From a virus: 21,733 nucleotides of DNA. Below are positions 7,144-13,000 of the stretch, piece after piece (position 1 is the stretch's first letter; the number at the start of each line of letters is the position of its first letter). The notes below the pieces were generated by a model that was not told where the DNA came from, searched no databases, and saw nothing but the letters and a program-made list of their open reading frames with translations. Where the stretch lies: positions 1-21,733 of the IMG/VR virus record IMGVR_UViG_3300042519_000356. The stretch is one strand, 5' to 3'. A program made the position numbers and the translations under genes.

Positions 7144-8268
7144 ATGAAAAGTGTTCTCTTCCGCAATACTGGCAAGTTCGACGCGCAGGGCAAAGAAGTC
7201 CGCGAGCCGATCTTCCTCAACAACCGTCACACCGCGAGCAAGTCGCTCTATCTGGGTGGCGAACGCAACAACGGTTTGGATACGCGCTACAACGCTGCCG
7301 CCGCCACTGCCGAGAATGCCACGGGGTATCAAATCCTTGTGGACACACTCACCTACATCAAGCAACAGCAGAGCGAGCAGACGTTCTACGAGCTTGGCTC
7401 GTTCGGTCTGACTCCTTCCAGCTTCGTGCCGGTGGCTGTCGGCGATGGCTCTTGGTCCGCAAACATCCTCACCCGCCGCACCTACTCGAACGGCGGCGAT
7501 TTCGAGGCGGGCCTTGTTCGTCAAGCGGGCAATAACACGCGCCTTTCTCAGTCCGACGTTTCGATGGACTCAGTGTCCATCAACACGTTTATCTGGGATG
7601 ACGCCGTGCAATACACGCTTGCAGAAATTGAGCAGGCTTTGGTCGCTTCTAACTGGGACATCATCTCCAGCAAACACGAAGCCCGCCTCAAAAAGTGGCA
7701 GCTTGGTGTGCAGGCGATTGCGTTCCTCGGCACCAAGTCGGGCAACATGGAAGGTCTGTTTAACAACAACAAGACCAACATTAACACCTCGCTCATCACC
7801 GCGCCGATCAGCGGTCTCAGTGCTGCGAACTTTGCAACCTTCGTGCAAACCCTGATTTCGACCTACTGGACGAACTCGGGCAGCACGGTGCTCCCAACCC
7901 ACTTCGTTATTCCGATGATTGATTATCTCGGTATGATGACGTTGGTCCCTGGCTCGGCTGGTACTTTCCCGGTCCCCATGCTGACCTACTTGGAGAATGC
8001 GTTCAAAGCTCTCTGCGGCCCGAACTTCAAGGTCATTCCAGTGGCCTACGGTGATGCGGCTATCAGCAACAGCCTCCGCTCGATCAACAAGAACACCTAC
8101 GCTCTCTACCGGTACGATCCAAAGTCGCTCCGCATGGACATCCCGGTGGACTTCACGGTCACGCAGCCCCAGACCATCAACAACTGGCAATTTGAGGACG
8201 TAGCCTACGCGCAACTCACTGGCGTCGGTTTCTACAAGCCACTTGAGACCCTGCTGTTCCAGTACTAA
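7144..8268 (+). CDS. Major capsid protein (DUF2184-like, HK97 fold)
   Basis: A 374-residue protein that forms the icosahedral shell. The C-terminal region (NKNTYALYRYDPKSLRMDIP, then a segment ending GVGFYKPLETLLFQY) has the pattern of the DUF2184 family: a domain reporting Tyr-Arg-x-Asp-Pro, then a final beta strand with an aromatic end. The central part (GDFEAGLVRQAGNNTRLSQSDVSM, then EIEQALVASNWDIISSKHEARLKK) fits the spine helix and A-domain of HK97-type shells. Length is normal. Its leader 7121-7143 is G-free, with no SD. The gene sits between the decoration protein and a small coiled-coil protein. Confidence 0.87.
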   Translation: MKSVLFRNTGKFDAQGKEVREPIFLNNRHTASKSLYLGGERNNGLDTRYNAAAATAENATGYQILVDTLTYIKQQQSEQTFYELGSFGLTPSSFVPVAVGDGSWSANILTRRTYSNGGDFEAGLVRQAGNNTRLSQSDVSMDSVSINTFIWDDAVQYTLAEIEQALVASNWDIISSKHEARLKKWQLGVQAIAFLGTKSGNMEGLFNNNKTNINTSLITAPISGLSAANFATFVQTLISTYWTNSGSTVLPTHFVIPMIDYLGMMTLVPGSAGTFPVPMLTYLENAFKALCGPNFKVIPVAYGDAAISNSLRSINKNTYALYRYDPKSLRMDIPVDFTVTQPQTINNWQFEDVAYAQLTGVGFYKPLETLLFQY

Positions 8269-8592: not shown

Positions 8593-9294
8593 GTGGCCTA
8601 CCTCCTCCCATCCGTTGCCGATTTCAAGGCGCAGTTCGTGCGGGACTTCCCGTTTGCGACACCTGCCTTTGTTGTCGGGGTGGTGGGGGCAACGGCCACG
8701 GCATCCGTAAGCTCCGGGGGCGTCTCTGGCATCGCAGTGACTGCCCCCGGTAGTGGTTTGAGCAATACCACACCCCTGTCCGCCGTAATCTACGGCGGCG
8801 GGGGTGTCGGTGCTCTTGCTTCCGTAACAGTCACCGCTGGTGCGGTGACAAGCATTCCAGTTAGCTCCGCAGGGTATGGCTATACTGAAGCACCCCGCGT
8901 CTACGTTTCATTGGGTGGTGACAACACCAACACCGAACGGGTCACAGATTTCGACATCGCTCGTGCGTTTAACGCCGCCGAGTCTTTCAACATGACCCGC
9001 ACTCTTTCAGGTTCGCAGGCGGCTTTTACCTACGCCTATGGACTCCTGTCGGCCCACTACCTTTGCGAGACCCTGCAAGCAGGCGGCTCCGGGTTAGGCG
9101 GAAAAGCCGATTGGTTGACAAGCTCTCGAAGCGTCGGCAACGTCAGCGAGTCCTACAACATTCCGACGCGAGTTCTGAACAGCCCGTTCTTGGCCAAGCT
9201 CTCGCGCACGACTTACGGGGCGCAGTTCCTTGAACTCGTGTCCGCATCCCTCATCGGCAATTTCCAATCGTTCCACCGGCCAACTTTGCCATGA
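8593..9294 (+). CDS. Head-tail adaptor (DUF4054-like) with an inserted Gly-rich beta domain
   Basis: A 233-residue protein beginning at GTG 8593; a longer frame upstream overlaps the preceding gene. The DUF4054 pattern is split in two. Residues 8-26 (VADFKAQFVRDFPF) form the start of the helical adaptor, and residues 117-233 hold the rest: VTDFDIARAFNAAESFN, AYGLLSAHYLCETLQAGG, then SRSVGNVSESYNIPTRVLNSPF and TTYGAQFLEL. Between them, residues about 27-115 form a Gly/Ser/Val/Thr-rich insert of two related repeats (VSGIAVTAPGSG and VTSIPVSSAGYGYTEAPRV). The adaptor would sit below the portal; the insert presumably projects from the neck (inference). Confidence 0.8.
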   Translation: MAYLLPSVADFKAQFVRDFPFATPAFVVGVVGATATASVSSGGVSGIAVTAPGSGLSNTTPLSAVIYGGGGVGALASVTVTAGAVTSIPVSSAGYGYTEAPRVYVSLGGDNTNTERVTDFDIARAFNAAESFNMTRTLSGSQAAFTYAYGLLSAHYLCETLQAGGSGLGGKADWLTSSRSVGNVSESYNIPTRVLNSPFLAKLSRTTYGAQFLELVSASLIGNFQSFHRPTLP

Positions 9295-10688: not shown

Positions 10689-11843
10689 ATGAGCTTTATC
10701 GCCGCCAGTAATTTCGTCTCTGTCAGCGTCTCTTCTCCGCCCACCGGCTTGAAGCAGTACGCCGTCAACAACCTCGCGCTTTTTACTAACGAGACTCCGG
10801 TCAATGGAGCCATCACCTTTGCCGTCCCAGGCATCTATGTCAGTCCAACCGACGTGTTGGCTGACTGGGGCGCTGGCTCGGAAGCCTACGCGCAAGCGGT
10901 CCTTGTGTTCAGCCAGTCGCCGAACATCCTCGATGGAAGCGGCACCCTCATCATCGTCCCCTTGGCCGCCAGCGGCACCAACTCGACGCTTGCCGAGGCA
11001 ATCCCGAACGCCCTCAAAATTAACTTCTTTGGTGGGGCTATCTGGGCGGGCCTTACTCCAAACGACGCCGCAGTCCTTGCCGCTTCGACCGCTTGCCAAT
11101 CCCTCCGCGTCAAGCTGTTTGCTAGCTCTCACCTTACCGCCTCTGTCGCTGGCTATTTCACAACCATCCGAGCGGCAAGCGAGACGCACACCCGCTGCCT
11201 GCTGTACACCGAAGGAGCAACCGCATTGCTGGCCCGCAAGATGGCCGCAGCCTATGCCGGTCGCGCTCTTTCTGTAAACTTTGATGGGGTCAATACGACC
11301 GCCACCATGCACTTGAAGACGCTAGTCGGGATCGCCCCAGACACTGGCATATCCCAGACCCAGCTTACTGCGTGTGAGACCGCTGGCGTGGACACCTATC
11401 CAAGCGTCGGCGGTGGCGCGCAGTATATCGGAAAAGTTTACAGCACTGGCGGCAACGAGTACTTCGACAACGTCTACAACCTCGACTGGCTTGTCTTCTC
11501 GCTTCAAGTCGCAGGCTTTAACGCCTTGGCAACTACGAGCACGAAATTGCCCCAGACTGAGCCAGGAATGGCTCTCCTGAAGGGTGCCTACATCAATGTC
11601 CTTCAACAAGCATTATCTAATGGGTTCATCGCTCCAGGTACGTGGAACTCAGCGGAGTTGTTTGGGAAACCTGCCGACCTTCGTCGCAACATCCTCAATC
11701 AAGGCTACTACATTTACAGCCTCCCAGTGACCCAGCAGACGCAAGCAACGCGAGAAGCTCGCGAAGCCCCGTTGGTTCGCATCGCTGTCAAGTTCGCGGG
11801 CGCTATTCAAAGCTCCGACGTGCTTGTCTCCATCAACAAGTAA
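10689..11843 (+). CDS. Contractile tail sheath protein (DUF3383-like)
   Basis: A 384-residue sheath subunit, the key evidence that this is a contractile-tailed phage. The C-terminal domain carries the conserved series IAPGTWNSAELFGKPADLRRN, LNQGYYIYSLPVTQQTQ, REAREAPLVRIAVKFAGAIQ, and a final beta strand DVLVSIN used for inter-subunit strand exchange. The N-terminal part holds the variable surface domains. The order sheath then tube is standard. Relatively short for a sheath, consistent with DUF3383 members. It begins 6 bases after the terminator gene without an SD; only C/A-rich sequence with few Gs precedes the ATG. Confidence 0.9.
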   Translation: MSFIAASNFVSVSVSSPPTGLKQYAVNNLALFTNETPVNGAITFAVPGIYVSPTDVLADWGAGSEAYAQAVLVFSQSPNILDGSGTLIIVPLAASGTNSTLAEAIPNALKINFFGGAIWAGLTPNDAAVLAASTACQSLRVKLFASSHLTASVAGYFTTIRAASETHTRCLLYTEGATALLARKMAAAYAGRALSVNFDGVNTTATMHLKTLVGIAPDTGISQTQLTACETAGVDTYPSVGGGAQYIGKVYSTGGNEYFDNVYNLDWLVFSLQVAGFNALATTSTKLPQTEPGMALLKGAYINVLQQALSNGFIAPGTWNSAELFGKPADLRRNILNQGYYIYSLPVTQQTQATREAREAPLVRIAVKFAGAIQSSDVLVSINK

Positions 11844-11855
11844 TCCACCCATCCC

Positions 11856-12311
11856 ATGTCCACCGTCTCACTCACTGGCAACGACACTCTCGTCATCGGC
11901 GGCATCGTCCTCAACGACTTTGCCGACGGAGACTGGTTCACGATCACTTACGACAACGATCTTGCCAATTTGAAGCGGGGCAAGAACGGCAATTCGATCT
12001 TCGCGGAAAACTCAATGGGGCTGGTTGGCACGGCCACTTTGCGTCTGATCCGTGCTTCCGATGACGACAAGTCTGTGGACGCGCTGCTCCAGCAGCAACT
12101 CCAAGACTTCTCGTCCTTCGTGCTGCTCGACGGACAAGCAACGAAACGCGCTGGCGACGGCATGGGCAACATCACTTCGGACACCTACAAGCTCCAAGGC
12201 GGCATCTTTAAGCGCATGGTGGATGCGAAATCCAATGCGGAGGGTGACACGGATCAGAGCGTTTCGATGTATCGCTTCGAGTTCGCGAACGTCTCCCGCC
12301 AGGTGTTCTAA
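11856..12311 (+). CDS. Tail tube protein
   Basis: A 151-residue protein directly after the sheath gene. It shows the fold pattern of phage tail tube proteins: LVIGGIVLNDFADGDWFTI, LANLKRGKNGNSIFAENSM, VGTATLRLIRASDDDKSV with LQQQLQDF, and GGIFKRMVDAKSNAEGDTDQ followed by a final strand. The arrangement matches the tube or tube-like proteins that follow DUF3383 sheaths. The tube forms the inner channel for DNA. Its leader (CCACCCATCCC before ATG) lacks G apart from the upstream stop region, and no SD is visible. A structured non-coding stretch of about 100 bases follows the stop. Confidence 0.82.
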   Translation: MSTVSLTGNDTLVIGGIVLNDFADGDWFTITYDNDLANLKRGKNGNSIFAENSMGLVGTATLRLIRASDDDKSVDALLQQQLQDFSSFVLLDGQATKRAGDGMGNITSDTYKLQGGIFKRMVDAKSNAEGDTDQSVSMYRFEFANVSRQVF

Positions 12312-12319
12312 TCAATCGG

Positions 12320-12404
12320 CTCCGAGCAAGAAGAGGATCGTTTCTAGGGGTCACGAATCCTCGCACCGACGCCATATCGGGCTTGCTCGGAGTCTCTCGA
12401 CCCC
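12320..12404 (+). ncRNA. Structured, pseudoknot-capable element between tube and chaperone genes
   Basis: Outer arms CTCCGAGCAAG (12320-12330) and CTTGCTCGGAG (12382-12392) are perfect 11-base complements. Inside, GAGGATCGT (12333-12341) pairs with ACGAATCCTC (12353-12362) leaving one bulged A, with an 11-base loop. GGGGTC in that loop (12347-12352) is exactly complementary to GACCCC (12399-12404) outside the outer stem, so a pseudoknot is possible. No T-run follows, so it is not a typical terminator. It fills nearly all of the 102-base gap between genes. It may be an mRNA element or a small RNA; type assignment is tentative. Confidence 0.5.
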
Positions 12405-12413
12405 GACCAATTT

Positions 12414-12833
12414 ATGCAAGACCCCATCACACTAAAGAGCGGCTCGACCTTGGAAGTCGGGATCGCTTCGTTCTCCGCAGGCCACCGTCTGATGAAGACG
12501 GTAGCCAAGGAGCTATCATTGGTGAACTTCGACTTGAATCTGTCGAACTTCTCCGAGTTGTCTGGTCAGGACATCAACGTCCTGAAGAACGCCATTTTTC
12601 AGCTCCTTCAATCCGACTCTTTGGAGGCGGCGCTGATGGAGTGTGCCAAACGGTCGCTCTACAACGGTCAGCGGATTACCCCGCAGACCTTTGAACCTGA
12701 AGACGCTCGGCAGGATTACCTGCCCGTTGCGTGGGAGGTGATGAAAGCAAACCTCTCCCCTTTTTTCAAGGGGCTCGCCTTGTCGTCCTTGACAAGCGAA
12801 AAGCCGACATCAAGCGCCCAGCGATCCGAGTAA
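12414..12833 (+). CDS. Tail assembly chaperone, short form
   Basis: A 139-residue protein between tail tube and tape measure genes, where lambda gpG-like chaperones are encoded. It starts with MQDPITLKSGSTLEVGIASF and is mostly helical afterwards (NLSNFSELSGQDINVLKNAIF, LEAALMECAKRSLYNGQR). Such proteins bind the tape measure during tail assembly and are absent from finished virions. Near its end (codons 116-118, PFF) lies the slippery run feeding the long form. The last 21 residues after the slip are low in conservation features. No SD precedes the ATG. Confidence 0.78.
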   Translation: MQDPITLKSGSTLEVGIASFSAGHRLMKTVAKELSLVNFDLNLSNFSELSGQDINVLKNAIFQLLQSDSLEAALMECAKRSLYNGQRITPQTFEPEDARQDYLPVAWEVMKANLSPFFKGLALSSLTSEKPTSSAQRSE

Positions 12834-13000
12834 CAATGGACCAAGAAACGCTCATGGCTCTGAGATTAGCTCGTGAGGGTTTTGGCGGGGGAGACCCCGC
12901 TCGGATTTTTGCCATGCCTACCAATATGGTCCTCGACGCTTGGGAGTTTGTGAATTTCCAAGCTGAATACGAGGAAACCACAAGGGAGATGAACAAATGA
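12414..13000 (+). CDS. Tail assembly chaperone, long form by -1 frameshift (join 12414..12767, 12767..13000)
   Basis: A -1 shift at T TTT TTC (12761-12767) or C CCT TTT (12758-12764) joins the chaperone to the frame ending at 13000, giving about 195 residues (118 before, 77 after the slip). The second part reads QGARLVVLDKRKADIKRPA and continues through LAREGFGGGDPARIFAMPT and VLDAWEFVNFQAEYEE, a helical domain equivalent to the T part of lambda gpGT or to Mu 41 prime. The downstream frame also has its own ATG at 12836 (54 residues), so separate translation is the alternative. The long form overlaps the tape measure start by ATGA. Confidence 0.75.
12734..12799 (+). promoter_or_regulatory. Candidate -1 programmed frameshift signal
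   Basis: Three elements line up. An internal SD-like GGAGGTGAT lies at 12734-12742. Two overlapping slippery heptamers follow in the zero frame: C CCT TTT (12758-12764) and T TTT TTC (12761-12767). After an 8-base spacer comes a hairpin (12775-12784 with 12791-12799): nine pairs, one bulged C, 6-base loop. CCCCTT (12757-12762) can also pair with AAGGGG (12768-12773) across the slippery run. The gene context (before the tape measure) is exactly where tail chaperone frameshifts occur. Confidence 0.78.

Follow-up and report, generated by a model that had tools for sequence, protein, structure and literature searches.

What fills the 102 nt that separate two tail genes of this phage, and what might it do there? 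The window (the whole 21,733-nt stretch of DNA analysed, IMG/VR record IMGVR_UViG_3300042519_000356) carries a phage structural operon, as judged from profile matches and gene order. Within it, a folded element occupies the 102 nt from the stop codon of a probable tail tube gene (12309-12311) to the AUG of a tail assembly chaperone gene. In phages generally, the tube is a very high-copy product and the chaperone a low-copy one.

Operon setting and anatomy of the element

The genes that define the setting are as follows.

7144-8268: major capsid gene (Pfam Major_capside)
10689-11843: sheath gene (PHROG 205)
11856-12311, + strand: probable tail tube gene, 151 residues, directly 3' of the sheath gene (PHROG 280, 'virion structural protein')
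12414-12833, + strand: tail assembly chaperone gene (Pfam Phage_TAC_15), start codon without a Shine-Dalgarno (SD) sequence

No profile named 'tail tube' matched the gene at 11856-12311, whose match is PHROG 280; it is read as the tail tube because of its place in the gene order, after the sheath. The first-pass annotation had located the element between tube and chaperone genes, and this placement is backed by PHROG 280 and gene order on the one side (the tube being probable) and by Phage_TAC_15 on the other. SD sequences are absent at most gene starts in the window, including those of the capsid, sheath and tube genes, and the leaders are AC-rich. Such gene starts suggest a host with weak SD dependence. 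Further into the chaperone gene, its reading frame is overlapped by an open reading frame at 12731-13000 in the -1 frame, with a slippery heptamer (T TTT TTC, 12761-12767) and a possible hairpin (CAAGG/CCTTG) just 3' of it. The overlapping arrangement at 12414-13000 and the heptamer correspond to the -1 frameshift typical of tail assembly chaperone genes; the slippery run is TTTTTTC in the related contigs L016, L018 and L020, TTTTTTG in L017 and TTTCTTC in L089.

Comparison with relatives shows that the element is, in its predicted structure, a pseudoknotted three-way-junction RNA of about 90 nt, composed of an outer stem (P1), two hairpins (B and C) and a loop-to-tail helix (K:K'). Its parts in the window are listed below.

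12312-12317, + strand: 5' spacer that separates P1 from the tube stop by 5-6 nt in each of the six lineages
12318-12330, + strand: outer stem P1, 5' strand; pairs with 12382-12394 over 13 bp with one G-U; covariation
12333-12341, + strand: hairpin B, 5' strand; pairs with 12353-12362, with one bulge
12347-12352, + strand: strand K (GGGGUC) of the pseudoknot, within the hairpin B loop
12353-12362, + strand: hairpin B, 3' strand
12366-12380, + strand: hairpin C (CCGA/UCGG, 7-nt loop; strands 12366-12369/12377-12380)
12382-12394, + strand: outer stem P1, 3' strand; covariation
12399-12404, + strand: pseudoknot strand K' (GACCCC), ending 9 nt 5' of the chaperone AUG
12420-12425, + strand: second possible partner of K (GACCCC, chaperone codons 3-4), complementary to the loop of hairpin B

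The tail 3' of P1 reads UCUCGACCCC. Several features had been noticed in the first-pass annotation from the letters alone. Its perfect 11-bp outer repeat is exact at 12320-12330/12382-12392 and extends to 13 bp when one G-U pair is counted, and the complementarity it described between the loop GGGGTC (12347-12352) and GACCCC (12399-12404) is likewise exact. Its inventory of helices was right about the bulged 9-bp hairpin (12333-12341/12353-12362) but missed the second hairpin at 12366-12369/12377-12380. It is the presence of this hairpin C, with a loop related to CRCYAA in five of the six lineages, that makes the element a three-way junction.

From the sequence of the window alone, the excess of structure over chance is modest. 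The fold of 12300-12425 has a z-score of -1.75 (14 of 200 shuffles were equally stable), that of 12312-12404 a z-score of -3.03, and the element ranks 96th of 2164 by energy among 102-nt windows on the + strand. Taken singly, the lineages give fold z-scores of -2.9 to -4.4. The most stable predicted RNA fold of the window lies elsewhere, at 8701-8872 (-66.5 kcal/mol for 102 nt at 8711, + strand), within a glycine-rich coding stretch.

Covariation and distribution among relatives

Relatives were gathered by searches with the tube, chaperone and sheath proteins. The element occurs in the same gap in six diverged lineages of a group of uncultured tailed phages, with proteins 59-89% identical to those of the window (tube proteins 62-89%, chaperones 59-78%): the window with the near-identical contigs L002-L007; L008; L018/L021; L009/L017; L020; and L089. 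Compensatory changes in related contigs, which the first-pass annotation had named as the check on its proposal, are strongly in evidence, with a level of pairing across the element that none of 500 shuffles matched. Across the six lineages 77 of 78 aligned P1 stem cells are paired, and six positions have changed on both sides and still pair; on the protein tree of the lineages, seven of the 13 P1 positions change one to three times. P1 is 13 bp long in five lineages and 14 bp in one. Hairpin B varies at all seven counted pairs, with several positions changing on the tree, and hairpin C is weaker (84% of cells paired, with L020 differing). RNAalifold independently returned the same fold from the alignment, with 15 pairs changed on both sides. 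Taken over the whole structure listed above, 92.9% of cells pair and the covariation score is 0.418 versus 0.204 in shuffles (0 of 500 as high), and sliding the partners by one column lowers pairing to 46-53%.

A covariance model (R1) was built from eight rows, which match it by construction; it finds the element in every member, scoring 76-109 bits on the + strand and never above 18 bits on the - strand. These scores and the G-U wobble pairs establish that the RNA is read from the + strand. Because six diverged relatives keep the shape while the letters change, the RNA structure is real. The weak single-sequence statistics would suit chance hairpins or a DNA-level inverted repeat, a reading of negligible probability that is refuted by the compensatory changes in six lineages, the G-U pairs on one strand and the 0 of 500 shuffles.

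The loop-to-tail pseudoknot has at least 6 bp in all six lineages. K is nearly invariant, so little covariation is available from it; L009 retains a 6-bp K:K' helix through a one-base shift, and in L089 the helix is extended to 11 bp, which 0 of 2000 shuffles reached. From the end of K' to the chaperone AUG there are 8-10 nt (14 in L020). The near-constant length of P1 and the short linkers to K' are what we would expect if hairpin B folds back along P1. The second GACCCC, at codons 3-4, also complements K in all six lineages when G-U pairs are allowed, a complementarity possibly kept through the protein sequence. An Asp-Pro pair is absent at the chaperone starts of the examined relatives that lack the element, and this, together with the complementarity kept at the second site, hints at competing pairings. 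As a proven switch, the second site was set aside; it is a hint only, and codons 3-4 show no more synonymous conservation than other codons of the gene.

The element is missing from about 50 tube relatives at greater distance (43-53% identity). Most of these have tube stop and chaperone start codons that overlap or almost touch, some with an SD-like sequence in between; in the element-bearing clade the stop-to-start gap is 102-111 nt. The sheath protein is also short in this clade (about 384-393 aa), compared with about 490 aa in distant relatives such as L019. The element is single copy in each record searched, the window's own record included, and the covariance model found no further credible copy, either at about 120 loci from relatives by tube, chaperone or sheath or in 40 complete viral records from distant relatives. 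One weak match to the model (13.7 bits over 48 bases, E 0.067) was read as chance, as was a pattern match in L090, because the outer stem is missing around it. No named phage gave a DNA match to the tube-chaperone stretch; the only one with a related tube protein (41%), Bdellovibrio phage phi1422, lacks the element. Among 273 and 388 bacterial genomes (of the order and phylum, respectively, of the one bacterial match), the element occurs only in that one metagenome-assembled genome (MAG). The match is L089 (CAIYUD010000104.1), a contig binned to an uncultured Opitutae MAG, which may be a prophage, a phage or a mis-binned contig and gives a possible host lead for the phage clade.

Comparison with known RNA systems

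In the window no Rfam 15 family reached its gathering cut-off at the element, in keeping with the first-pass annotation, which did not recognise a known RNA family here, and permissive Rfam searches of three lineages gave chance-level matches only, far below the cut-offs. At the element, searches found no tRNA or tmRNA, no promoter-like match and no intrinsic terminator (a G+C-rich hairpin with an immediate T-run); the absence of a terminator T-run had also been noted at first reading. Phage retroregulators and 3'-UTR RNAs, such as lambda sib and the L17 downstream element, are likewise structured RNAs directly after a gene and may act on the message upstream of them. Lambda sib is an RNase III hairpin, and the L17 downstream element is a curated Rfam family with no match to our element. 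Phage and bacterial operons with intercistronic coupling share the principle that structure and spacing from one stop to the next start set relative expression; they differ in that none of the cases found has a covarying pseudoknotted fold replacing a stop/start overlap.

The pairing loop of class 1 flaviviral xrRNAs (exonuclease-blocking RNAs), L3, lies on the second hairpin. These RNAs share with the element a three-way junction in which a hairpin loop pairs 3' of the base stem (PMC5760640). P1, B, C and K:K' give this topology here, but with the pairing loop on the first, 5' hairpin, and the sequence is unrelated and the genome is phage DNA. On reading the alignment, we saw no stretch of the 5' spacer that would obviously pair with the junction, as in the xrRNA-type ring. 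The T4-type gene 32 leader is also a phage mRNA pseudoknot 5' of a start codon with a patchy distribution among relatives (PMC3014915, PMC535899), and K:K' places such a pseudoknot upstream of the chaperone start in six lineages. The T4 version differs in being a two-helix pseudoknot of about 28 nt that lies 67 nt upstream, with an A+U-rich binding tract for gp32 and an SD; the present element is a three-way junction of about 90 nt in which K' ends 8-14 nt before an SD-less AUG, leaving only those 8-14 nt as a tract. A 2010 review considered the T4-type pseudoknot possibly the sole viral case of a pseudoknot in translational autoregulation (PMC3014915). On these comparisons the element resembles the T4 gene 32 leader pseudoknot in setting and class 1 xrRNAs in topology, and is assigned to neither. 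No description of such an element was found in the open-licence literature, and we class it as a new family of cis-acting structured RNA in phages.

Candidate functions at the tube-chaperone boundary

The first-pass annotation had suggested that the element may control mRNA processing, decay or translation of the chaperone; what bears on function here is the element's position, its anatomy and the comparison among relatives. Our preferred reading, held tentatively, is that the element may be a translational insulator or attenuator working in cis, which takes the place of stop-start coupling and reduces how much chaperone is made relative to tube. In the distant relatives, where tube stop and chaperone start codons mostly overlap or touch, translation of the two genes is probably coupled, with ribosomes reinitiating at the chaperone after terminating on the tube gene. 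In the element-bearing clade, the element would sit in the polycistronic tail mRNA and act in cis, with terminating ribosomes being shed across the gap that holds the fold. Starts without an SD depend on an open leader. The chaperone leader at about -15 to -10 is the K' strand, and the chaperone, lacking an SD, would need a fresh initiation event at an AUG preceded by a leader locked in the pseudoknot. Opening and closing of K:K', or competition with the site at codons 3-4, would then set chaperone output low relative to tube. A gap of 102-111 nt should break coupling, because in reporter work reinitiation had almost vanished once stop and start were about 20-38 nt apart (PMC10666635), and it is the broken coupling together with an SD-less AUG whose leader strand is K' that makes us favour insulation or attenuation. 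The T4 gene 32 leader pseudoknot provides a phage precedent for translational autoregulation (PMC3014915).

The SD-less start of the chaperone is not special in itself, because most genes here, those for highly made proteins included, lack an SD. For the same reason the idea that the element replaces a lost SD is weakened. Also set aside was a distal SD, provided by GGAGG-like purines of hairpin B and moved close by folding, the strand being paired in B. A role in stimulating readthrough or -1 frameshifting of the tube gene was rejected: none of the frames remains open across the element in all six lineages, and it is therefore not coding. Enhanced initiation or an effect on mRNA stability would be equally possible roles for the element.

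Stability is the basis of the main rival to the translational reading, a possible but clearly less probable role in mRNA decay or processing. The stem and pseudoknot would block exonucleases, or an RNase III-like cut would occur, so that the tube mRNA would be stable and the chaperone mRNA short-lived. Such a role would suit an element that begins 5-6 nt after the probable tube stop, and the near-constant 13-14 bp of P1 with the loop-to-tail pseudoknot suggest a mechanically rigid fold; flaviviral xrRNAs of similar topology block bacterial RNase J1 in vitro (PMC5760640). A barrier alone, however, needs no K' close to the AUG.

It is unlikely that the fold is a protein-binding operator, at which a phage or host protein, for instance the chaperone or the tube, would bind and repress the chaperone autoregulatorily. 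Its unpaired parts (the loop of hairpin C and UUCUUGGGGUC) are conserved beyond the needs of pairing and GGGGUC is nearly invariant, as an operator might require, but no candidate RNA-binding protein was found, and tail assembly chaperones are not known to bind RNA. T4 gene 32 operates in this manner (PMC3014915, PMC535899). Rather unlikely, too, is a natural xrRNA-like mechanical roadblock, in which the three-way-junction pseudoknot would halt a bacterial exonuclease, or else the ribosome, between the tube and chaperone genes; if true, a bacteriophage would thereby be setting its virion-protein stoichiometry at the RNA level.

That the element is cut out of the tail mRNA to serve as a trans-acting small RNA or a structural RNA is improbable. 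The discrete, compact and conserved fold of about 90 nt, single copy per record searched, would be compatible with it, but the lack of a promoter-like match and of a terminator at the element speaks against it, and a role in cis is favoured because the position in the gap and the distances to the stop and the AUG are kept. It is very improbable that the element is a self-cleaving ribozyme, of a class not described before, that cuts the two mRNAs apart: the junction is pseudoknotted and has some invariant unpaired bases, but there is no Rfam match even at permissive thresholds and no obvious conserved cleavage site, and the topology is unlike that of HDV-like, twister and pistol ribozymes.

Phages need tube, chaperone and tape-measure protein in widely differing quantities from genes that lie side by side. 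The element adds a new family to the few structured RNAs known from phages, and a covarying pseudoknot at the tube/chaperone boundary is a concrete candidate for RNA-level control of tail-protein ratios.
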